The position numbers and the translations under genes are program-made. 64,000 nucleotides of DNA. Origin: Gigantopelta aegis (taxonomy: Eukaryota; Mollusca; Gastropoda; Neomphalida; Peltospiridae). The notes beneath the pieces are model-generated. The model searched no databases. It worked only from the letters and a program-made list of their open reading frames with translations, and was not told the origin of the DNA. The DNA is taken from contig NC_054713.1 in NCBI RefSeq assembly GCF_016097555.1, positions 558,001-622,000 of the forward strand, read 5' to 3'. Positions 1 through 61,306 of the stretch are shown here, piece after piece; the first letter of the stretch is position 1; every line of letters begins with the position of its first letter.

Positions 1-3000
1 CAAGAAAGGCTGTAACCAGTCCGTCATTATTCAGCAGCGATTCAGGTAACAGTGAGTTTGACGACACAGCCGAGCAGAGTTTCGCTTTATGCTATATATT
101 ATCTGTGCGGCTCAAGAAAGGCCGTAACCAGTCTGTCATTATTCAGCAGCGATTCAGGTAACGGTCAGAGTTTGACGACACAGCCGAGCAGAGTTTCGCT
201 TTATGCTATATATTATCTGTGCGGCTCAAGAAAGGCCGTAACCAATCCGTCATTATTCAGCAGCGATTCAGGTAACAGTCGGAGTTTGACGACACAGCCG
301 AGCAGAGTTTCGCTTTATGCTATATATTATCTGTGCGGCTCAAGAAAGGCCGTAACCACTCCGTCATTATTCAGCAGCGATTCAGGTAACAGTCGGAGTT
401 TGACGACACAGCCGAGCAGAGTTTCGCTTTATGCTATATATTATCTGTGCGGCTCAAGAAAGGCCGTAACCAATCCGTCATTATTCAGCAGCGATTCAGG
501 TAACAGTCGGAGTTTGACGACACAGCCGAGCAGAGTTTCGCTTTATGCTATATATTATCTGTGCGGCTCAAGAAAGGCCGTAACCAGTCCGTCATTATTC
601 AGCAGCGATTCAGGTAACAGTGAGTTTGACGACACAGCCGAGCAGAGTTTCGCTTTATGCTATATATTATCTGTGCGGCTCAAGAAAGGCCGTAACCAGT
701 CTGTCATTATTCAGCAGCGATTCAGGTAACGGTCAGAGTTTGACGACGCAATCGAGCAGAGTTTCGCTTTATGCTATATATTATCTGTGCGGCTCAAGAA
801 AGGCCGTAACCAATCCGTCATTATTCAGCAGCGATTCAGGTAACGGTCAGAGTTTGACGACACAGCCAAGCAGAGTTTCGCTTTATGCTATATATTATCT
901 GTGCGGCTCAAGAAAGGCTGTAACCAGTCCGTCATTATTCAGCAGCGATTCAGGTAACGGTCAGAGTTTGACGACACAGCCAAGCAGAGTTTCGCTTTAT
1001 GCTATATATTATCTGTGCAGCTCAAGAAAGGCCGTAACCAGTCCGTCATTATTCAGCAGCGATTCAGGTAACGGTCAGAGTTTGACGACGCAACCGAGCA
1101 GAGTTTCGCTTTATGCTATATATTATCTGTGCGGCTCAAGAAAGGCCGTAACCAATCCGTCATTATTCAGCAGCGATTCAGGTAACAGTCAGAGTTTGAC
1201 GACACAGCCAAGCAGAGTTTCGCTTTATGCTATATATTATCTGTGCAGCTCAAGAAAGGCCGTAACCAGTCCGTCATTATTCAGCAGCGATTCAGGTAAC
1301 GGTCAGAGTTTGACGACGCAACCGAGCAGAGTTTCGCTTTATGCTATATATTATCTGTGCGGCTCAAGAAAGGCCGTAACCAATCCGTCATTATTCAGCA
1401 GCGATTCAGGTAACGGTCAGAGTTTGACGACACAGCCAAGCAGAGTTTCGCTTTATGCTATATATTATCTGTGCGGCTCAAGAAAGGCTGTAACCAGTCC
1501 GTCATTATTCAGCAGCGATTCAGGTAACGGTCAGAGTTTGACGACACAGCCAAGCAGAGTTTCGCTTTATGCTATATATTATCTGTGCGGCTCAAGAAAG
1601 GCCGTAACCAGTCTGTCATTATTCAGCAGCGATTCAGGTAACGGTCAGAGTTTGACGACGCAATCGAGCAGAGTTTCGCTTTATGCTATATATTATCTGT
1701 GCGGCTCAAGAAAGGCCGTAACCAATCCGTCATTATTCAGCAGCGATTCAGGTAACGGTCAGAGTTTGACGACACAGCCAAGCAGAGTTTCGCTTTATGC
1801 TATATATTATCTGTGCGGCTCAAGAAAGGCTGTAACCAGTCCGTCATTATTCAGCAGCGATTCAGGTAACGGTCAGAGTTTGACGACACAGCCAAGCAGA
1901 GTTTCGCTTTATGCTATATATTATCTGTGCAGCTCAAGAAAGGCCGTAACCAGTCCGTCATTATTCAGCAGCGATTCAGGTAACGGTCAGAGTTTGACGA
2001 CGCAACCGAGCAGAGTTTCGCTTTATGCTATATATTATCTGTGCGGCTCAAGAAAGGCCGTAACCAATCCGTCATTATTCAGCAGCGATTCAGGTAACAG
2101 TCAGAGTTTGACGACACAGCCAAGCAGAGTTTCGCTTTATGCTATATATTATCTGTGCAGCTCAAGAAAGGCCGTAACCAGTCCGTCATTATTCAGCAGC
2201 GATTCAGGTAACGGTCAGAGTTTGACGACGCAACCGAGCAGAGTTTCGCTTTATGCTATATATTATCTGTGCGGCTCAAGAAAGGCCGTAACCAATCCGT
2301 CATTATTCAGCAGCGATTCAGGTAACGGTCAGAGTTTGACGACACAGCCAAGCAGAGTTTCGCTTTATGCTATATATTATCTGTGCGGCTCAAGAAAGGC
2401 TGTAACCAGTCCGTCATTATTCAGCAGCGATTCAGGTAACGGTCAGAGTTTGACGACACAGCCAAGCAGAGTTTCGCTTTATGCTATATATTATCTGTGC
2501 GGCTCAAGAAAGGCCGTAACCAATCCGTCATTATTCAGCAGCGATTCAGGTAACGGTCAGAGTTTGACGACGCAACCGAGCAGAGTTTCGCTTTATGCTA
2601 TATATTATCTGTGCGGCTCAAGAAAGGCCGTAACCAATCCGTCATTATTCAGCAGCGATTCAGGTAACAGTCAGAGTTTGATGACACAGCCAAGCAGAGT
2701 TTCGCTTTATGCTATATATTATCTGTGCAGCTCAAGAAAGGCCGTAACCAGTCCATCATTATTCAGCAGCGATTCAGGTAACGGTCAGAGTTTGACGACG
2801 CAACCGAGCAGAGTTTCGCTTTATGCTATATATTATCTGTGCGGCTCAAGAAAGGCCGTAACCAATCCGTCATTATTCAGCAGCGATTCAGGTAACGGTC
2901 AGAGTTTGACGACACAGCCAAGCAGAGTTTCGCTTTATGCTATATATTATCTGTGCGGCTCAAGAAAGGCTGTAACCAGTCCGTCATTATTCAGCAGCGA

Positions 3001-3185
3001 TTCAGGTAACGGTCAGAGTTTGACGACACAGCCAAGCAGAGTTTCGCTTTATGCTATATATTATCTGTGCGGCTCAAGAAAGGCTGTAACCAGTCCGTCA
3101 TTATTCAGCAGCGATTCTGGTAATGGTCGGATTTTGATGACGCAACCGAGCAGAGTTTTGCTTCATGCTATATATAGTCTCTGCT
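1..3185. repeat. 114-bp satellite array, about 28 units
   Basis: Tandem copies of a 114-bp unit run from the window edge and decay in a last diverged unit near 3117-3185. Two units are 2 bp shorter (near 51 and 619). Variants (cggctc/cagctc, aatccg/agtccg, acacag/acgcaa, caatcg) repeat in the same order after 8 units. The rare caatcgagc variant is at 749 and again at 1661, exactly 912 bp apart, so there is a higher-order repeat. As 114 is a multiple of 3, one + frame stays open for 866 codons (620-3220). Unit differences are a mix of silent and replacement changes, so I treat it as satellite, not a gene. Confidence 0.95.
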
Positions 3186-7382: not shown

Positions 7383-10300
7383 TATTTGATAATCAGAAAC
7401 CGATATTCTTAACAATATACTGTATTCAAGATGTATCTTTACTTCAACTTAGCCTGGTCTCAACTAATTTGATAATCAGAAACCGATATTCTTAACAATA
7501 CACTGTGTTCAAGATGTAACTTTACTTCAACTTAGCTTGGTCTCAACTAATTTGATAATCAGAGACAGATATTCTTAACAATACACTGTGTTCAAGATGT
7601 AACTTTACTTCAACTTAGCTTGGTCTCAACTAATTTGATAATCAGAGACAGATATTCTTAACAATACACTGTGTTCAAGATGTAACTTTACTTCAACTTA
7701 GCTTGGTCTCAACTAATTTGATAATCAGAGACAGATATTCTTAACAATACACTGTGTTCAAGATGTAACTTTACTTCAACTTAGCTTGGTCTCAACTAAT
7801 TTGATAATCAGAGACAGATATTCTTAACAATACACTGTGTTCAAGATGTAACTTTACTTCAACTTAGCTTGGTCTCAACTAATTTGATAATCAGAGACAG
7901 ATATTCTTAACAATACACTGTGTTCAAGATGTAACTTTACTTCAACTTAGCTTGGTCTCAACTAATTTGATAATCAGAGACAGATATTCTTAACAATACA
8001 CTGTGTTCAAGATGTAACTTTACTTCAACTTAGCTTGGTCTCAACTAATTTGAATCAGAGACAGATATTCTTAACAATACACTGTGTTCAAGATGTAACT
8101 TTACTTCAACTTAGCTTGGTCTCAACTAATTTGATAATCAGAGACAGATATTCTTAACAATACACTGTGTTCAAGATGTAACTTTACTTCAACTTAGCTT
8201 GGTCTCAACTAATTTGATAATCAGAGACAGATATTCTTAACAATACACTGTGTTCAAGATGTAACTTTACTTCAACTTAGCTTGGTCTCAACTAATTTGA
8301 TAATCAGAGACAGATATTCTTAACAATACACTGTGTTCAAGATGTAACTTTACTTCAACTTAGCTTGGTCTCAACTAATTTGATAATCAGAGACAGATAT
8401 TCTTAACAATACACTGTGTTCAAGATGTAACTTTACTTCAACTTAGCTTGGTCTCAACTAATTTGATAATCAGAGACAGATATTCTTAACAATACTCTGT
8501 GTTCAAGATGTAACTTTACTTCAACTTAGCTTGGTCTCAACTAATTTGATAATCAGAGACAGATATTCTTAACAATACTCTGTGTTCAAGATGTAACTTT
8601 ACTTCAACTTAGCTTGGTCTCAACTAATTTGATAATCAGAGACAGATATTCTTAACAATACACTGTGTTCAAGATGTAACTTTACTTCAACTTAGCTTGG
8701 TCTCAACTAATTTGATAATCAGAGACAGATATTCTTAACAATACACTGTGTTCAAGATGTAACTTTACTTCAACTTAGCTTGGTCTCAACTAATTTGATA
8801 ATCAGAGACAGATATTCTTAACAATACACTGTGTTCAAGATGTAACTTTACTTCAACTTAGCTTGGTCTCAACTAATTTGATAATCAGAGACAGATATTC
8901 TTAACAATACACTGTGTTCAAGATGTAACTTTACTTCAACTTAGCCTGGTCTCAACTAATTTGATAATCAGAGACAGATATTCTTAACAATACTCTGTGT
9001 TCAAGATGTAACTTTACTTCAACTTAGCTTGGTCTCAACTAATTTGATAATCAGAGACAGATATTCTTAACAATACTCTGTGTTCAAGATGTAACTTTAC
9101 TTCAACTTAGCTTGGTCTCAACTAATTTGATAATCAGAGACAGATATTCTTAACAATACACTGTGTTCAAGATGTAACTTTACTTCAACTTAGCTTGGTC
9201 TCAACTAATTTGATAATCAGAGACAGATATTCTTAACAATACACTGTGTTCAAGATGTAACTTTACTTCAACTTAGCTTGGTCTCAACTAATTTGATAAT
9301 CAGAGACAGATATTCTTAACAATACACTGTGTTCAAGATGTAACTTTACTTCAACTTAGCTTGGTCTCAACTAATTTGATAATCAGAGACAGATATTCTT
9401 AACAATACACTGTGTTCAAGATGTAACTTTACTTCAACTTAGCTTGGTCTCAACTAATTTGATAATCAGAGACAGATATTCTTAACAATACTCTGTGTTC
9501 AAGATGTAACTTTACTTCAACTTAGCTTGGTCTCAACTAATTTGATAATCAGAGACAGATATTCTTAACAATACTCTGTGTTCAAGATGTAACTTTACTT
9601 CAACTTAGCTTGGTCTCAACTAATTTGATAATCAGAGACAGATATTCTTAACAATACACTGTGTTCAAGATGTAACTTTACTTCAACTTAGCTTGGTCTC
9701 AACTAATTTGATAATCAGAGACAGATATTCTTAACAATACACTGTGTTCAAGATGTAACTTTACTTCAACTTAGCCTGGTCTCAACTAATTTGATAATCA
9801 GAGACAGATATTCTTAACAATACACTGTGTTCAAGATGTAACTTTACTTCAACTTAGCTTGGTCTCAACTAATTTGATAATCAGAGACAGATATTCTTAA
9901 CAATACTCTGTGTTCAAGATGTAACTTTACTTCAACTTAGCTTGGTCTCAACTAATTTGATAATCAGAGACAGATATTCTTAACAATACACTGTGTTCAA
10001 GATGTAACTTTACTTCAACTTAGCTTGGTCTCAACTAATTTGATAATCAGAGACAGATATTCTTAACAATACACTGTGTTCAAGATGTAACTTTACTTCA
10101 ACTTAGCCTGGTCTCAACTAATTTGATAATCAGAGACAGATATTCTTAACAATACTCTGTGTTCAAGATGTAACTTTACTTCAACTTAGCTTGGTCTCAA
10201 CTAATTTGATAATCAGAGACAGATATTCTTAACAATACTCTGTGTTCAAGATGTAACTTTACTTCAACTTAGCTTGGTCTCAACTAATTTGATAATCAGA

Positions 10301-12861
10301 GACAGATATTCTTAACAATACTCTGTGTTCAAGATGTAACTTTACTTCAACTTAGCTTGGTCTCAACTAATTTGATAATCAGAGACAGATATTCTTAACA
10401 ATACTCTGTGTTCAAGATGTAACTTTACTTCAACTTAGCTTGGTCTCAACTAATTTGATAATCAGAGACAGATATTCTTAACAATACTCTGTGTTCAAGA
10501 TGTAACTTTACTTCAACTTAGCTTGGTCTCAACTAATTTGATAATCAGAGACAGATATTCTTAACAATACACTGTGTTCAAGATGTAACTTTACTTCAAC
10601 TTAGCTTGGTCTCAACTAATTTGATAATCAGAGACAGATATTCTTAACAATACTCTGTGTTCAAGATGTAACTTTACTTCAACTTAGCCTGGTCTCAACT
10701 AATTTGATAATCAGAGACAGATATTCTTAACAATACTCTGTGTTCAAGATGTAACTTTACTTCAACTTAGCTTGGTCTCAACTAATTTGATAATCAGAGA
10801 CAGATATTCTTAACAATACACTGTGTTCAAGATGTAACTTTACTTCAACTTAGCTTGGTCTCAACTAATTTGATAATCAGAGACAGATATTCTTAACAAT
10901 ACACTGTGTTCAAGATGTAACTTTACTTCAACTTAGCTTGGTCTCAACTAATTTGATAATCAGAGACAGATATTCTTAACAATACTCTGTGTTCAAGATG
11001 TAACTTTACTTCAACTTAGCCTGGTCTCAACTAATTTGATAATCAGAGACAGATATTCTTAACAATACTCTGTGTTCAAGATGTAACTTTACTTCAACTT
11101 AGCTTGGTCTCAACTAATTTGATAATCAGAGACAGATATTCTTAACAATACTCTGTGTTCAAGATGTAACTTTACTTCAACTTAGCTTGGTCTCAACTAA
11201 TTTGATAATCAGAGACAGATATTCTTAACAATACTCTGTGTTCAAGATGTAACTTTACTTCAACTTAGCCTGGTCTCAACTAATTTGATAATCAGAGACA
11301 GATATTCTTAACAATACTCTGTGTTCAAGATGTAACTTTACTTCAACTTAGCTTGGTCTCAACTAATTTGATAATCAGAGACAGATATTCTTAACAATAC
11401 TCTGTGTTCAAGATGTAACTTTACTTCAACTTAGCTTGGTCTCAACTAATTTGATAATCAGAGACAGATATTCTTAACAATACTCTGTGTTCAAGATGTA
11501 ACTTTACTTCAACTTAGCTTGGTCTCAACTAATTTGATAATCAGAGACAGATATTCTTAACAATACTCTGTGTTCAAGATGTAACTTTACTTCAACTTAG
11601 CTTGGTCTCAACTAATTTGATAATCAGAGACAGATATTCTTAACAATACTCTGTGTTCAAGATGTAACTTTACTTCAACTTAGCTTGGTCTCAACTAATT
11701 TGATAATCAGAGACAGATATTCTTAACAATACTCTGTGTTCAAGATGTAACTTTACTTCAACTTAGCTTGGTCTCAACTAATTTGATAATCAGAGACAGA
11801 TATTCTTAACAATACTCTGTGTTCAAGATGTAACTTTACTTCAACTTAGCTTGGTCTCAACTAATTTGATAATCAGAGACAGATATTCTTAACAATACTC
11901 TGTGTTCAAGATGTAACTTTACTTCAACTTAGCTTGGTCTCAACTAATTTGATAATCAGAGACAGATATTCTTAACAATACACTGTGTTCAAGATGTAAC
12001 TTTACTTCAACTTAGCTTGGTCTCAACTAATTTGATAATCAGAGACAGATATTCTTAACAATACACTGTGTTCAAGATGTAACTTTACTTCAACTTAGCC
12101 TGGTCTCAACTAATTTGATAATCAGAGACAGATATTCTTAACAATACACTGTGTTCAAGATGTAACTTTACTTCAACTTAGCCTGGTCTCAACTAATTTG
12201 ATAATCAGAGACAGATATTCTTAACAATACTCTGTGTTCAAGATGTAACTTTACTTCAACTTAGCCTGGTCTCAACTAATTTGATAATCAGAGACAGATA
12301 TTCTTAACAATACACTGTGTTCAAGATGTAACTTTACTTCAACTTAGCCTGGTCTCAACTAATTTGATAATCAGAGACAGATATTCTTAACAATACACTG
12401 TGTTCAAGATGTAACTTTACTTCAACTTAGCCTGGTCTCAACTAATTTGATAATCAGAGACAGATATTCTTAACAATACACTGTGTTCAAGATGTAACTT
12501 TACTTCAACTTAGCTTGGTCTCAACTAATTTGATAATCAGAGACAGATATTCTTAACAATACACTGTGTTCAAGATGTAACTTTACTTCAACTTAGCTTG
12601 GTCTCAACTAATTTGATAATCAGAGACAGATATTCTTAACAATACTCTGTGTTCAAGATGTAACTTTACTTCAACTTAGCCTGGTCTCAACTAATTTGAT
12701 AATCAGAGACAGATATTCTTAACAATACACTGTGTTCAAGATGTAACTTTACTTCAACTTAGCTTGGTCTCAACTAATTTGATAATCAGAGACAGATATT
12801 CTTAACAATACACTGTGTTCAAGATGTAACTTTACTTCAACTTAGCCTGGTCTCAACTAAT
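7383..12861. repeat. 83-bp satellite array, about 66 units
   Basis: A 5.48-kb, very homogeneous array of an 83-bp unit containing 'gagacagatattcttaac' and 'tcaagatgtaacttt'. Only the first units differ much (agaaaccgat, atatactgtattc). Within the array two diallelic sites dominate: aatacactg/aatactctg and cttggtc/cctggtc. The acactg form dominates the left part and the actctg form clusters in 10.1-11.9 kb. One unit near 8049 is 2 bp short. No reading frame stays open because 83 is not a multiple of 3. It would lie in the intron of the candidate + strand gene. Confidence 0.97.
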
Positions 12862-37232: not shown

Positions 37233-37289
37233 CTGAAATAACAAATACCAATAACTAGCATTCTGAGAGTACTGCTATAACATCTGTCA

Positions 37290-37796
37290 TCTGTGTATAC
37301 CTTTTGAGAGTGTGTCTTCAGACTACTGTCATTTGTGAATACCTTTAGAGTGAGCATCTTCAGACTACTGTCATTTGTGAACACCTTTAGAGTGTGCGTC
37401 TTCAGTCTACTGTCGTTTGTGAACACCTTTAGAGTGTGCCTCTTCAGACTACTGTCGTTTGTGAATACCTTTAGAGTGTGCCTCTTCAGACTACTGTCGT
37501 TTGTGAATACCTTTAGAGTGTGAGTCTTCAGACTACTGTCGTTTGTGAATACCTTTAGAGTGTGCGTCTTCAGACTACTGTCGTTTGTGAATACCTTTAG
37601 AGTGTGCGTCTTCAGACTACTGTCGTTTGTGAATACCTTTAGAGTGTGCGTCTTCAGACTACTGTCGTTTGTGAATACCTTTAGAGAGTGCGTCTTCAGA
37701 CTACTGTAGTTTGTGAATACCTTTAGAGTGTGCGTCTTCAGACTACTGTCGTTTGTGAATACCTTTAGAGTGTGCGTCTTCAGACTACTGTCGTTT
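37290..37796 (-). repeat. 42-bp minisatellite copying an exon end and its splice donor
   Basis: Twelve units of 42 bp. The unit nearest 37796 is the coding end of the 37763-37947 exon, and the other eleven fill about 87% of the following 530-bp intron. Each unit is the last 36 bp of the exon plus six intron bases (gtattc), so every unit carries its own aag|gtattc donor (the last has aag|gtatac). No unit contains an in-frame stop. The peptide equivalent is VFTNDSSLKTHTLK. Confidence 0.95.
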
Positions 37797-37947
37797 GTGT
37801 AGCTGCGATGACAGATGACACACTTGTAGAGTCGAGTCTCTGCCTTCTTCACCTGGTCGTCATGGTTACGTAGGTGATGATGCAGATTTGACAGCTGAGC
37901 AAACGCCCGATCACATCCATCTATAGCGCACTTGTAGGGCTTTTCTC
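37763..37947 (-). CDS. C2H2 zinc-finger gene, third visible exon (two fingers)
   Basis: Bounded by the acceptor caattcag (37948) and the donor aag|gtattc (37762-37761). Phase 1 in and phase 0 out. It reads EKPYKCAIDGCDRAFAQLSN onward, a C-x4-C-x12-H-x3-H finger. A longer linker (DDQVKKAETRLYK) leads to a second finger, C-VI-C-HRSYTNDSSLKT-H, whose last His comes from the next exon. The pair (GC-type finger with QLSNL, long linker, next finger with xYT/SxxSL) resembles fingers in ZNF384, ZNF362, rotund and LIN-29, which bind A-rich DNA. The orthologue is inferred, not proven. The donor is the first of twelve tandem copies, and using a later one would lengthen the protein by 14 residues per unit without frame loss. 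Confidence 0.9.
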
Positions 37948-38756: not shown

Positions 38757-40162
38757 ATCTTTTTTATGCACCTTCTCAGAGAGCTAAAATCTAAACATTG
38801 ACATAAGAAACCCATCAATTAGCAGCAAGGCATCTTTTATATGCACCGGCCTCGGTGTCGTCGTGGCAGGCCATCGGTCTACAGGCTGGTAGGTACTGGG
38901 TTCGGATCCCAGTCGAGGCATGGGATTTTTAATCCAGATACCGACTCCAAACCCTGAGTGAGTGCTCCGCAAGGCTCAATGGGTAGGTGTAAACCACTTG
39001 CACCGACCAGTGATCCATAACTGGTTCAACAAAGGCCATGGTTTGTGCTATCCTGCCTGTGGGAAGCACAAATAAAAGATCCCTTGCTGCCTGTCGTAAA
39101 AAAGAGTAGCCTATGTGGCGACAGCGGGTTTCCTCTAAAAATAGTGTCAAAATGACCATATGTTTGACGTTCAATAGCCGATGATAAGATTAAAAATCAA
39201 TGTGCTCTAGTGGCGTCGTTAAATAAAACAAACTTTTACTTTACTTTTATATGCACCTTCTTAGAGAGCTAAAACCTAAACATTAACATAAGAAACCCAT
39301 CAATTAGCAACAAGGCATCTTTTATATGCACCTTCTTAGATGCTAAAATCTAAACATTAACATAAGAAACCCATCAATTGGCAGCAAGGCATCTTTTATA
39401 TGCACCTTCTTAGAGAGCTAAAATCTAAACATTAACATAAACCCATCAATTGGCAGCAAGGCATCTTTTATATGCACCTTCTTAGAGAGCTAAAACCTAA
39501 ACATTACATAAGAAACCCATCAATTGGCAGCAAGGCATCTTTTATATGCACCTTCTTAGAGAGCTAAAACCTAAACATTACATAAGAAACCCATCAATTA
39601 GCAGCAAGGCATCTTTTATATGCACCTTTTTAGAGAGCTAAAACCTAAACATTAACATAAGAAACCCATCAATTAGCAGCAAGGCATCTTTTATATGCAC
39701 CTTCTTAGAGAGCTAAAACCTAAACATTACACAAGAAACCCATCAATTAGCAGCAAGGCATCTTTTATATGCACCTTCTTAGAGAGCTAAAACCTAAACA
39801 TTAACATAAGAAACCCATCAATTAGCAGCAAGGCATCTTTTATATGCACCTTCTTAGAGAGCTAAAACCTAAACATTACATAAGAAACCCATCAATTAGC
39901 AGCAAGGCATCTTTTATATGCACCTTCTTAGAGAGCTAAAACCTAAACATTACACAAGAAACCCATCAATTAGCAGCAAGGCATCTTTTATATGCACCTT
40001 CTTAGAGAGCTAAAACCTAAACATTACATAAGAAACCCATCAATTAGCAGCAAGGCATCTTTTATATGCACCTTCTTAGAGAGCTAAAACCTAAACATTA
40101 ACATAAGAAACCCATCAATTAGCAGCAAGGCATCTTTTATATGCACCTTCTTAGAGAGCTAG
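38757..40162 (-). repeat. 75-bp minisatellite derived from the SINE core, split by a SINE
   Basis: About 13 units (excluding the insert). Each carries ttagcagcaaggcatctttt joined to tatatgcacc, the reverse complement of the SINE core, plus a non-SINE half with 'gagagctaaaacctaaac'. A full SINE sits inside it at 38848-39243. Confidence 0.9.
38848..39243 (+). mobile_element. full-length tRNA-derived SINE with target-site duplication
   Basis: 396 bp flanked by the 14-bp direct repeat cttttatatgcacc (38834-38847 and 39244-39257). Head: ggcctcggtgtcgtcgtgg with an A-box-like segment, and B box ggttcggatccc at 38899-38910. The body includes 'aataaaagatcccttgctg' and the tail is gttaaataaaacaaactttt. 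Intact ends and duplication show insertion into an already existing minisatellite. Confidence 0.9.
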
Positions 40163-42658: not shown

Positions 42659-42835
42659 CTGTGTGTATCCGGATGTGTTGCTGAAGGTGAGACAGTTGTT
42701 TGAAACATTTGTCGCAGTACGGACAGTCGTGTTTCCGTACCCCAGAATGCACCAGGTTGTGTTGGTTCAGCTGTGGTTTGCTTCGAAATCCCTTCAGGCA
42801 CGTGGGGCACATGTGGGACTTTTCAGGGGTCTCTC
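42659..42835 (-). CDS. C2H2 zinc-finger gene, second visible exon (duplicated two-finger block)
   Basis: A 177-bp exon between the acceptor tgttaccag (42836) and the donor acacag|gtactg, phase 1 at both ends, so skipping it keeps the frame. It encodes ETPEKSHMCPTCLKGFRSKP then QLNQHNLVHSGVRKH and DCPYCDKCFKQLSHLQQHIR IHTG: two C-x2-C-x12-H-x3-H fingers. It is 47/58 identical to the end of the 54084-54412 exon. Inclusion would give six fingers, skipping four. It cannot simply replace the 54-kb exon, because that one accepts phase 2. No exon-edge minisatellite follows this exon, unlike the other three. Confidence 0.9.
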
Positions 42836-50201: not shown

Positions 50202-50401
50202 NNNNNNNNNNNNNNNNNNNNNNNNNNNNNNNNNNNNNNNNNNNNNNNNNNNNNNNNNNNNNNNNNNNNNNNNNNNNNNNNNNNNNNNNNNNNNNNNNNN
50301 NNNNNNNNNNNNNNNNNNNNNNNNNNNNNNNNNNNNNNNNNNNNNNNNNNNNNNNNNNNNNNNNNNNNNNNNNNNNNNNNNNNNNNNNNNNNNNNNNNNN
50401 N
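50202..50401. other. assembly gap, 200 N
   Basis: Exactly 200 undetermined bases. The right edge opens directly into a tandem array, so the true size is unknown. Confidence 0.99.
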
Positions 50402-52010: not shown

Positions 52011-52189
52011 CTGTGTGTATTTGTATATACACATAAAGGTAAGTTAAATGTGTATAATAATAGCGTACACAATAATTGTATCTGCATGTATTCGTATATT
52101 GGTGACCGGTATATAATAATGGATTAGTGCATGAACATACCTGTGTGTATTTGTTATCTACATTGTAGCTAAATTAAAGGATATATACT

Positions 52190-53400
52190 AATTGTACATC
52201 TGTGTGTATTCGTATATAGGTATGTTACAGGTGTATATACTAATTGTACATCTGTGTGTATTCGTATATAGGTATGTTACAGGTGTATATACTAATCGTA
52301 CATCTGTGTGTATTCGTATATAGGTATGTTACAGGTGTATATACTAATCGTACATCTGTGTGTATTCGTATATAGGTATGCTACAGGTGTATATACTAAT
52401 TGTACATCTGTGTGTATTCGTATATAGGTATGTTACAGGTGTATATACTAATTGTACATCTGTGTGTATTCGTATATAGGTATGTTACAGGTGTATATAC
52501 TAATTGTACATCTGTGTGTATTCGTATATAGGTATGCTACAGGTGTATATACTAATTGTACATCTGTGTGTATTCGTATATAGGTATGTTACAGGTGTAT
52601 ATACTAATTGTACATCTGTGTGTATTCGTATATAGGTATGTTACAGGTGTATATACTAATTGTACATCTGTGTGTATTCGTATATAGGTATGTTACAGGT
52701 GTATATACTAATTGTACATCTGTGTGTATTCGTATACAGGTATGTTACAGGTGTATATACTAATTGTACATCTGTGTGTATTCGTATACAGGTATGTTAC
52801 AGGTGTATATACTAATTGTACATCTGTGTGTATTCGTATATAGGTATGCTACAGGTGTATATACTAATCGTACATCTGTGTGTATTCGTATATAGGTATG
52901 CTACAGGTGTATATACTAATCGTACCTGTGTGTATTCGTATGCAGGTAAGTTACAGGTGTATATAACAATCGTACCTGTGTGTATTTGTATGCAGGTAAG
53001 TTACAGGTGTATATAACAATCGTATCTGTGTGTATTCGTATACAGGTAAGTTACAGGTGTATATAACAATCGTACCTGTGTGTATTTGTATACAGGTAAG
53101 TTACAGGTGTATACAACAATCGTATCTGTGTGTATTTGTATACAGGTAAATTACAGGTGTATATAACAATTGTATTTGTATACAGGTAAGTTACAGGTGT
53201 ATATAACAATCGTATCTGTGTGTATCTGTATACAGGTAAGTTACAGGTGTATATAACAATCGTATCTGTGTGTATCTGTATACAGGTAAGTTACAGGTGT
53301 ATATAACAATCGTATCTGTGTGTATTTGTATACAGGTAAGTTACATGTGTATATATAACAATTGTATCTGTGTGTATTTGTATACAAGTGTATATACTAA
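52190..53400 (-). repeat. 49-52-bp minisatellite, old derivatives of a zinc-finger exon donor
   Basis: About 24 units. Each holds 'tctgtgtgtattcgtata' or 'cctgtgtgtattcgtata', whose complement is the last 16 bases of the 54084-54412 exon plus GT, and 'ggtatgttacaggtgtata' or 'ggtaagttacaggtgtata'. Compared with the 67-bp units to the right they lack the gctgctgcaggtgagac segment. Confidence 0.88.
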
Positions 53401-54083
53401 TTGTGCCTGTGTGTATTTGTATATGCTGCTGAAGGTGAGACAGGTGTATATATACTAATCGTACCTGTGTGTAGTCGTATACAGGTAAGTTACAGGTGTA
53501 TATTCATATATGTTGCTGAAGATGAGACAGGTGTAAACAATTGTACCTGTGTCTATTCGTATATGCTGCTGCAGGTGAGACAGGTAAGTTACAGGTGTAA
53601 ATAACAATGGTACCTGTGTGTATTCGTATATGCTGCTGCAGGTGAGACAGGTAAGTTACAGGTGTAAATAACAATGGTACCTGTGTGTATTCGTATATGC
53701 TGCTGCAGGTGAGACAGGTAAGTTACAGGTGTAAATAACAATGGTACCTGTGTGTATTCGTATATGCTGCTGCAGGTGAGACAGGTAAGTTACAGGTGTA
53801 AATAACAATGGTACCTGTGTGTATTCGTATATGCTGCTGCAGGTGAGACAGGTAAGTTACAGGTGTAAATAACAATGGTACCTGTGTGTATTCGTATATG
53901 CTGCTGCAGGTGAGACAGGTAAGTTACAGGGTGTAAATAACAATGGTACCTGTGTGTATTCGTATATGCTGCTGCAGGTGAGACAGGTAAGTTACAGGTG
54001 TAAATAACAATGGTACCTGTGTGTATTCGTATATGCTGCTGCAGGTGAGACAGGTAAGTTACAGGTGTAAATAACAATCGTAC
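53401..54083 (-). repeat. 67-bp minisatellite copying an exon end and its splice donor
   Basis: Eight near-identical 67-bp units plus two or three diverged ones abut the exon. Each unit is 37 bp of the exon end (coding SHLQQHIRIHTG) plus the first 30 bp of the intron, so each has an acacag|gtacc donor. Since 67 is not a multiple of 3, units do not keep frame. On the + strand each unit also has a perfect cag|gtaagt site. Confidence 0.95.
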
Positions 54084-54412
54084 CTGTGTGTATTCGTATA
54101 TGCTGCTGCAGGTGAGACAGCTGTTTGAAAGACTTGTCGCAGTACGCACAGTCGTGCTTGCGTATCCCAGTATGCACCAGGCTGTGTTGGTTGAGCTGCT
54201 GTTTGCTGCGGAATGCCTTCGCACACGTCGTACACAGATGATTCTTCTCCGGCGTCCCTACCGACGACGTTGCCGGCATCTGCTGCAGCGGTGGCTGTTG
54301 TTGCTGCTGCTGTAGAGCCGCGGCTGACATGGACATGGGTAGTGGCGGTGGTAGCGCCGGTAGAGCCATCTGGTCGTGGATGTGAGTGTCGGCGACCGAC
54401 ATGGACTCATCC
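54084..54412 (-). CDS. C2H2 zinc-finger gene, first visible exon
   Basis: Best left limit is the pyrimidine-rich acceptor ctcttcttcttccaacag at 54413 onward. The donor is acacag|gtacg at 54083-54082. Phase 2 in, phase 1 out, 109 full codons. It begins DESMSVADTHIHDQMALPAL, then a Pro/Met stretch, a Gln run (LQQQQQQPPLQQ), and two fingers: C-TT-C-AKAFRSKQQLNQ-H-SLV-H and C-AY-C-DKSFKQLSHLQQ-H-IRI-H. The start codon and any 5' exons are not seen and may lie beyond the window. The same frame stays open upstream to 54549 and a weaker acceptor (gttgactag) could extend the exon by about 137 bp. Confidence 0.88.
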
Positions 54413-58235: not shown

Positions 58236-58244
58236 TGCATTTCT

Positions 58245-59699
58245 TTTGTTAAAAGCCACTGAATAAACAATGTGATGTCAGAAAATAAACAAAGTAAACT
58301 TTCTTTTCTTGAAAGCCACTGAATAAACAATGTAATGAGGTGTCAGAAAATAAACAAACTAAACTTTCTTTTCTTGAAAGCCACTGAATAAACAATGTGA
58401 TGAGGTGTCAGAAAATAAACAAACTAAACTTTCTTTTCTTGAAAGCCACTGAATAAACAATGTGATGAGGTGTCAGAAAATAAACAAACTAAACTTTCTT
58501 TTCTTGAAAGCCACTGAATAAACAATGTGGTGTCAGAAAATAAACAAACTAAACTTTCTTTTGTTGAAAGCCACTGAATAAACAATGTGATGAGGTGTCA
58601 GAAAATAAACAAACTAAACTTTCTTTTCTTGAAAGCCACTGAATAAACAATGTGGTGTCAGAAAATAAACAAACTAAACTTTCTTTTGTTGAAAGCCACT
58701 GAATAAACAATGTGATGAGGTGTCAGAAAATAAACAAACTAAACTTTCTTTTCTTGAAAGCCACTGAATAAACAATGTGGTGTCAGAAAATAAACAAACT
58801 AAACTTTCTTTTGTTGAAAGCCACTGAATAAACAATGTAATGAGGTGTCAGAAAATAAACAAACTAAACTTTCTTTTGTTGAAAGCCACTGAATAAACAA
58901 TGTGATGTCAGAAAATAAACAAACTAAACTTTCTTTTCTTGAAAGCCACTGAATAAACAATGTGATGAGGTGTCAGAAAATAAACAAACTAAACTTTCTT
59001 TTGTTGAAAGCCACTGAATAAACAATGTGATGAGGTGTCAGAAAATAAACAAACTAAACTTTCTTTTCTTGAAAGCCACTGAATAAACAATGTGATGAGG
59101 TGTCAGAAAATAAACAAACTAAACTTTCTTTTCTTGAAAGCCACTGAATAAACAATGTGATGAGGTGTCAGAAAATAAACAAACTAAACTTTCTTTTCTT
59201 GAAAGCCACTGAATAAACAATGTGATGAGGTGTCAGAAAATAAACAAACTAAACTTTCTTTTGTTGAAAGCCACTGAATAAACAATGTGATGAGGTGTCA
59301 GAAAATAAACAAACTAAACTTTCTTTTGTTGAAAGCCACTGAATAAACAATGTGATGAGGTGTCAGAAAATAAACAAACTAAACTTTCTTTTGTTGAAAG
59401 CCACTGAATAAACAATGTGATGAGGTGTCAAAAAATAAAGTAAACTTTCTTTTCTTGAAAGCCACTGAATAAACAATGTGGTGTCAGAAAATAAACAAAC
59501 TAAACTTTCTTTTGTTGAAAGCCACTGAATAAACAATGTGATGAGGTGTCAGAAAATAAACAAACTAAACTTTCTTTTGTTGAAAGCCACTGAATAAACA
59601 ATGTGATGTGATGACAGAAAATAAACAAACTAAACTTTCTTTTCTTGAAAGCCACTGAATAAACAATGTGATGAGGTGTCAGAAAATAAACAAACTAAA
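58245..59699. repeat. 57-65-bp minisatellite, about 23 units
   Basis: Units contain 'gaaagccactgaataaac', 'gtcagaaaataaacaaac' and 'taaactttcttttgttg'. Variants: presence or absence of gatga, and ttgttg/ttcttg. Confidence 0.95.
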
Positions 59700-61306
59700 C
59701 TGGTTGGAGGGCCCACTGACGGGCCTTGATATACCAGTCGTGTTGCACTGGTTGGAGGGCCCACTGACGGGCCTTGATATACCAGTCGTTGTGCACTGGT
59801 TGGTGGGCCCACAGACGGGCCTTGATATACCAGTCGTGGTGCACTGGTTGGAGGGCCCACTGACAGGGATTGATATACCAGTCGTGGTGCACTGGTTGGA
59901 GGGCCCACTGACGGGCCTTGATATACCAGTCGTGGTGCACTGGTTGGAGGGCCCACTGACAGGGATTGATATACCAGTCGTGGTGCACTGGTTGGAGAGC
60001 CCACTGACGGGCTTTGATATACCAGTCGTGGTGCACTGGTTGGAGGGCCCACAGACAGGGATTGATAAACCAGTCATGGTGCACTGGTTGGAGGGCCCAC
60101 AGACAGGGATTGATATACCAGTCGTGGTGCACTGGTTGGAGGGCCCACTGACGGGCCTTGATATACCAGTCGTGTTGCACTGGTTGGAGGGCCCACTGAC
60201 GGGCCTTGATATACCAGTCGTTGTGCACTGGTTGGTGGGCCCACAGACGGGCCTTGATATACCAGTCGTGGTGCACTGGTTGGAGGGCCCACTGACAGGG
60301 ATTGATATACCAGTCGTGGTGCACTGGTTGGAGGGCCCACTGACGGGCCTTGATATACCAGTCGTGGTGCACTGGTTGGAGGGCCCACTGACAGGGATTG
60401 ATATACCAGTCGTGGTGCACTGGTTGGAGGGCCCACTGACGGGCCTTGATATACCAGTCGTGGTGCACTGGTTGGAGGGCCCACAGACAGGGATTGATAA
60501 ACCAGTCATGGTGCACTGGTTGGAGGGCCCACAGACAGGGATTGATATACCAGTCGTGGTGCACTGGTTGGAGGGCCCACTGACGGGCCTTGATATACCA
60601 GTCGTGGTGCACTGGTTGGAGGGCCCACAGACAGGGATTGATAAACCAGTCATGGTGCACTGGTTGGAGGGCCCACAGACAGGGATTGATATACCAGTCG
60701 TGGTGCACTGGTTGGAGGGCCCACTGACGGGCCTTGATATACCAGTCGTGTTGCACTGGTTGGAGGGCCCACTGACGGGCCTTGATATACCAGTCGTTGT
60801 GCACTGGTTGGTGGGCCCACAGACGGGCCTTGATATACCAGTCATGGTGCACTGGTTGGAGGGCCCACTGACAGGGATTGATATACCAGTCGTGGTGCAC
60901 TGGTTGGAGGGCCCACTGACGGGCCTTGATATACCAGTCGTGGTGCACTGGTTGGAGGGCCCACTGACAGGGATTGATATACCAGTCGTGGTGCACTGGT
61001 TGGAGGGCCCACTGACGGGCCTTGATATACCAGTCGTGGTGCACTGGTTGGTGGGCCCACAGACGGGCCTTGATATACCAGTCATGGTGCACTGGTTGGA
61101 GGGCCCACTGACAGGGATTGATATACCAGTCGTGGTGCACTGGTTGGAGGGCCCACTGACGGGCCTTGATATACCAGTCGTGGTGCACTGGTTGGAGGGC
61201 CCACTGACAGGGATTGATATACCAGTCGTGGTGCACTGGTTGGAGGGCCCACTGACGGGCCTTGATATACCAGTCGTGGTGCACTGGTTGGAGGGCCCAC
61301 AGACAG
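59700..61306 (-). repeat. 48-bp minisatellite derived from a SINE fragment, about 33 units
   Basis: The unit 'gatataccagtcgtggtgca' plus 'ctggttggagggcccact' and gacgggcctt equals the reverse SINE body with a short deletion (compare 57805-57880). Variants repeat in blocks: the rare cgtgttgcac form is at about 59734, 60166 and 60742. Being 48 bp, it leaves several frames open over 500 codons on both strands. All are artefacts. Confidence 0.93.

Follow-up and report, generated by a model that had tools for sequence, protein, structure and literature searches.

An exon end and its splice donor repeated in tandem behind a zinc-finger exon of the snail Gigantopelta aegis

In the zinc finger 85-like gene of Gigantopelta aegis, the end of exon 3 and the splice donor that follows it stand twelve times in tandem, in frame and across the exon-intron boundary. 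According to our analysis of a window of 64,000 nt (the whole stretch of genomic DNA studied here), this array, termed array B, is probably an intronic minisatellite, likely to stem from a tandem duplication across the exon end and donor; the message is predicted to use the first donor, at 37762, with eleven spare donors behind it. These spare donors are likely by-products of repeat growth rather than a switch of protein length. A second minisatellite of exon end plus donor, array A, lies at exon 1 of the same gene (52182-54120) and had escaped the preliminary description of this DNA.

The gene, 'zinc finger protein 85-like', occupies the minus strand of the window, the strand on which all exons, introns and units of both arrays are given below. 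Its owner is a peltospirid snail that lives at hydrothermal vents (PMC7895826, in the part consulted). Four exons (54411-54084, 42835-42659, 37947-37763 and 37232-36207) reproduce, when joined, residues 19-589 of the database record 'zinc finger protein 85-like isoform X2 [Gigantopelta aegis]', here P0001, letter for letter. The first 18 residues of this protein, searched for with three short motifs, have no match in the window. The in-frame part of exon 1, delimited by sequence and the P0001 match, carries fingers 1 and 2 and closes with unit 1 of array A (37 bases). Exon 2 is a diverged copy of these two fingers (81% identity over 58 residues by tblastn) with no array behind it; further copies of its end occur only in exon 1 and array A. 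Exon 3, an exact match to P0001 when joined, encodes the third finger of the four-finger core plus finger 4 as far as the first histidine; the last 36 bases of the exon are unit 1 of array B. Intron 3 (37233..37762, boundaries set by P0001) measures 530 bp, and exon 4, again placed by sequence and the P0001 match, supplies the MHIH that closes finger 4, the C-terminal part and the stop codon. The pattern of finger 4 is C-x2-C-x12-H-x4-H, with the second H encoded in exon 4. In the P0001 model, donor 37762 alone serves exon 3, and a single intron separates exons 3 and 4.

The duplicate of exon 1's two fingers, exon 2 (42659-42835), is included in isoform X2. Extra finger copies at the place of exon 2 are seen in P0004, P0006 and P0019 too, and to judge from these sequences exon duplication in the zinc finger 85-like gene may be recurrent among snails. 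An ATG at 54513-54511 (minus strand), in frame with exon 1, opens an alternative N-terminus (region 54511-54084) that reads MEDLVCSLWQDTDPYFVNFKLFLTYWLL... and is similar to the starts of P0016 and P0023; perhaps it belongs to another isoform.

Tandem Repeats Finder places array B at 37284..37799, with a period of 42, 12.3 copies, 95% matches and a score of 906. The array thus spans the exon-intron boundary, beginning 37 bases inside exon 3. Exon 3 ends in ...ACAAACGACAGTAGTCTGAAGACGCACACTCTAAAG|GTATTC, and it is this 42-bp stretch, made of 36 exon and six donor bases, that recurs in the unit table. A donor is present in all twelve units: AAAG|GTRT is repeated at a spacing of 42 within 37299..37762, the first intron bases being 37762, 37720 and so on to 37300. 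Repeat detection and donor spacing therefore bear out the preliminary description, which had read the array as twelve tandem copies of exon end plus donor. Its figure of about 87% repeat copies in intron 3 likewise stands, eleven full copies of 42 bp accounting for 462 of the 530 bp. The statement that every copy has aag|gtat needs correction: GTAT is found in ten of the twelve, and the donors at 37426 and 37384 read aag|gtgt.

Units 1, 2, 4, 5 and 6 are identical, unit 3 and units 7-12 carry one to five differences each, and divergence grows with distance from exon 3 (rho 0.79). These individual changes argue against unit copies made or multiplied by the assembler, as does the sequencing of the host genome with PacBio from one individual (PMC7895826, in the part consulted), an assembly from which we infer the window to come. 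Imperfect assembly nearby is indicated by a gap within intron 1, 200 N long (50202-50401), that directly precedes a 35-bp array. We find an assembly artefact hardly credible; the exact unit number of array B could be off. Variation of this number between individuals, which had been called likely, is plausible.

Joining each of the twelve donors to exon 4 confirmed that the frame is kept from every one of them, with no stop before the normal end, so that 0 to 154 residues would be added in steps of 14; retention of intron 3 loses the frame and then meets a stop. The preliminary description had seen in this a splice-controlled, length-variable region. Such a working length switch, with several of the twelve donors in use, would agree with donors that are all intact, in frame and free of stops, with their near-equal pairing to U1 and with a human minisatellite (IFI6) for which used repeat donors have been reported. 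We nevertheless regard it as rather unlikely. The database isoform P0001 is modelled with the first donor, the unit occurs in none of the protein records examined, extra units part the histidines of finger 4, and the units vary as if untranslated. Moreover, sister array A is out of frame, and both intact donors and the lack of stops are expected by chance (see below). The gene model favours the view that all transcripts would use donor 37762.

Neither VFTND nor HTLKV occurs in any of the 133 proteins examined, which comprise 120 listed out of 646 matches in one search and 13 additional ones from an array-directed search with 25 hits; in either search, scoring was confined to the candidates with the most words in common, some 8,000 in number (7,993 in the array-directed one). 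The finger stretch CHR.YT..SSL..HTLK is present in 18 of these 133 proteins. Seventeen of the 18, P0001 included, go straight into MH without an inserted unit, and the remaining one, the partial land-snail record P0006, stops exactly at the exon 3/4 junction. Six further relatives were left out of this evidence against inserted units, as they had been chosen by a pattern demanding a closed finger.

Because the second histidine of finger 4 sits in exon 4, an extra unit parts the two histidines. The earlier proposal that donor choice determines which histidine closes finger 4 calls for caution: among the lengths with zero, one or two extra units, the zf-C2H2 match reaches its final position only in the one with zero. 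Without an extra unit the Pfam model is covered at 23 of 23 positions; one or two extra units lower this to 21 of 23 in the best-matching stretch, although the summed zf-C2H2 score rises with the further partial matches that they add. Weak Pfam names on the translation of array B were taken as chance.

A minimum of 13 changes, 9 nonsynonymous and 4 synonymous, accounts for the differences among the units of array B (expected share 0.77, P = 0.34, a weak test given the few changes). Without selection, the chance of no stops is 0.81, and that of no donor being hit in 13 changes is 0.53; for the latter reason the idea that the twelve donors are kept by selection is unsupported. Unit variation, absence from the protein records examined and finger disruption likewise leave a coding array, with its units in the protein, unsupported. 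On these three grounds and that of the P0001 model, array B is as a rule probably untranslated. An effect of the repeat on exon 3 itself was considered and discarded: D replaces E and T replaces S/A inside the unit in G. aegis, and unique residues number 2 of 12 there as against 3 of 50 in the rest of the exon (P = 0.25). Two looser relatives have D or T at those positions too. Within the repeated stretch at 37763-37798, aspartate stands in G. aegis where 17 relatives have glutamate, which is overall not significant.

When paired with the U1 end, ten of the array B donors score -5.7 and two -5.2 kcal/mol, the consensus reaching -14.5. With pairing so nearly equal, site strength does not explain a choice of the first donor; the decision would have to fall to the order of transcription, the size of the exon or exon enhancers, unless further donors are used too. 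Hairpins hiding donors were tried as an explanation and rejected, as none of four stretches folds more stably than its shuffled versions (z -0.04, 0.61, 0.40, 0.30). The weak pairing of donor 37762 (-5.7 vs -14.5 kcal/mol) would suit a further proposal, namely that the row of donors is a cluster of U1 binding sites which aids recognition of exon 3 without being cut. A donor behind an exon is indeed described as helping to recruit factors to the upstream acceptor (PMC8724738, in the part consulted). A needed cluster would not be expected to lose its donors, yet array A has lost them in most copies, and we hold this proposal to be very unlikely.

Array A, too, spans its exon-intron boundary, beginning 37 bases inside exon 1. 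The exon ends in ...CACACAG|GTACGATT and is followed by 67-bp units, each joining the final 37 exon bases to 30 bases of the intron. In the young part (53536..54120; Tandem Repeats Finder, unit walk and stops), each such unit has CAG|GT and is out of frame; eight units, exon 1's own included, are near-identical (54120-53584). The old part (52182..53535; Tandem Repeats Finder and unit walk) contains partial and 50-52-bp units, with the donor gone in most copies, and extends down to 52182. With the word ACACAG as the marker of an exon-end copy, array A has 34 of them. CAG|GT is kept in 13, namely copies one to ten plus three among the remaining 24, and has been lost from 21 by at least three different changes. 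Use of any of the nine nearest CAG|GT donors, out of twelve behind the exon's own, brings the joined reading to a stop at residue 135-143, be it joined to exon 2 or to exon 3. Since array A is out of frame, the copying of donors does not depend on preservation of the frame, and the in-frame state of array B may be a one-in-three accident.

The donors of array A differ at position +5. Exon 1's own donor has a G there (GTACGA), the next eight copies read GTACCA in seven cases and GTACAA in one, and the tenth again has G. GTACGA and GTACCA score alike as U1 duplexes (-7.6 kcal/mol), and the difference is only suggestive. On the plus strand, the units of array A carry CAGGTAAGT, a perfect consensus donor; its 17 copies in array A are all 17 in the window.

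As the origin of both arrays, we propose that slippage or unequal exchange in a repeat-rich region duplicated a stretch across the donor and so may have seeded each of them. Selection on the finger would then hold the exon copy fixed, and the copies behind it would drift as intron. Splicing would take the first donor and seldom a spare one, since any extra unit would damage the last finger or, at exon 1, cut the protein short. Against this explanation speaks that isoform X2 is a database model, that another isoform may exist, that the weak donor may leave room for several in use and that downstream repeat units are reported to be used in human IFI6. It is conceivable, if unlikely, that selection depends on the frame: the twelve donors of array B would survive as their use is tolerated, and 21 of the 34 in array A would have been lost as their use ends the protein early. 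This reading draws on two arrays of possibly different age and on a borderline count, made by eye from the alignment, in which donor losses in the older units are 2 of about 14 minimum events (P = 0.10), or 3 of 15 (P = 0.018) if AG|GC at 53412 is added. If it were true, splicing would really draw on the spare donors at a low level, and nature would have set up in this gene an experiment on how the spliceosome chooses among identical donors.

Tandem arrays with a period of 9 or more make up 44.3% of the window in 39 merged stretches. Given this cover, at least two of the three gene donors would lie inside an array with a probability of 0.42 under random placement, and a targeting of arrays to splice donors is unsupported by position. 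The consensus unit holds NAGGTR, on either strand, in 8 of the 39 stretches, arrays A and B included. The special feature of these two arrays is the exon inside the unit. Array bases number 37 of 319 in exon 1 (taken as 54084-54402), 0 of 177 in exon 2, 37 of 185 in exon 3 and 37 of 1026 in exon 4, where they form an unrelated weak 16-bp row. In a scan requiring 28 of 36 matches, copies of the last 36 bases of exons 1-3 turned up nowhere but in arrays A and B and the related exon; for the first 36 bases of exons 2-4 there were none. An array on the donor side would seem tolerable to the gene, the first donor being left intact. Growth polarity was dropped as a special mark, another array (39244-40161) also having one worn end. 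For the G. aegis genome, the part of PMC7736800 consulted gives 64% repeats and a tandem-repeat share like that of Biomphalaria, so the 44% of the window need not be typical.

A minisatellite that provides donors is of a known kind; what sets the present case apart is the mostly exonic unit in a zinc finger, present twice in one gene, once in frame and once out. The repeat unit of IFI6, a human interferon-induced gene, is 12 bp long. Its minisatellite gives several donors according to the title of Turri et al. (1995), and two downstream repeat units are stated in the consulted part of PMC4526556 to serve as donors, resulting in three mRNA species. As far as these excerpts go, IFI6 resembles array B in having a minisatellite at an exon end whose units offer donors. 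Array B differs in its unit of 42 bp, mostly exon (36 of 42), in its location in a zinc finger and in the second, out-of-frame array of the gene. Whereas the downstream donors of IFI6 are reported as used, arrays A and B are known here from DNA and one protein model. The literature listings seen contain no report on the array of the zinc finger 85-like gene and, apart from IFI6, reached via citations, no other minisatellite of exon end plus donor.

Three further systems, each taken from excerpts of the papers, show partial likeness. Where introns are gained through tandem duplication of AGGT-containing coding sequence (for instance in potato RdRp, PMC4974935), the duplicated stretch also holds the donor, but in the snail gene an old intron was lengthened and the donor multiplied, with no new intron. 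A new intron inside formerly coding sequence was not found between exons 3 and 4: the model has one intron there, and P0006 ends at the same junction. The 38-bp VNTR in TERT intron 6 (PMC3948165, PMC11830802) is likewise an intronic minisatellite tied to splicing, yet it lies more than 1 kb from exons and acts by RNA pairing, and the excerpts describe no donor per unit. Tandem donors a few bases apart (PMC2279118) are also in-frame neighbours; they differ by 3, 6 or 9 bases, those of array B by multiples of 42 via a minisatellite.

Rows of identical donors within the same context are as a rule constructed artificially; this single gene has by nature twelve that are in frame and a run of ten that are out of frame. 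If only the first donor is used, transcription order or exon context must decide among nearly equal sites. If others are used, molecules of a putative regulator, and perhaps individuals, would differ in one of its zinc fingers. The gene also illustrates one route by which a repeat-rich genome can gain alternative donors without harm to the existing one.

Elsewhere in the window, very long tandem arrays occupy 1-3175, 7384-12861 and 58240-61304 (114 bp x 28, 83 bp x 66 and 65/48 bp, respectively), the 114-bp array being open for 878 codons on the plus strand. No tRNA gene was found in the window. An ORF at 62554-63555 matches zf-C17orf113 (33.3 bits, cut-off 29.5), with a sub-threshold match to DUF4371, and presumably represents the remains of a hAT-type transposon.
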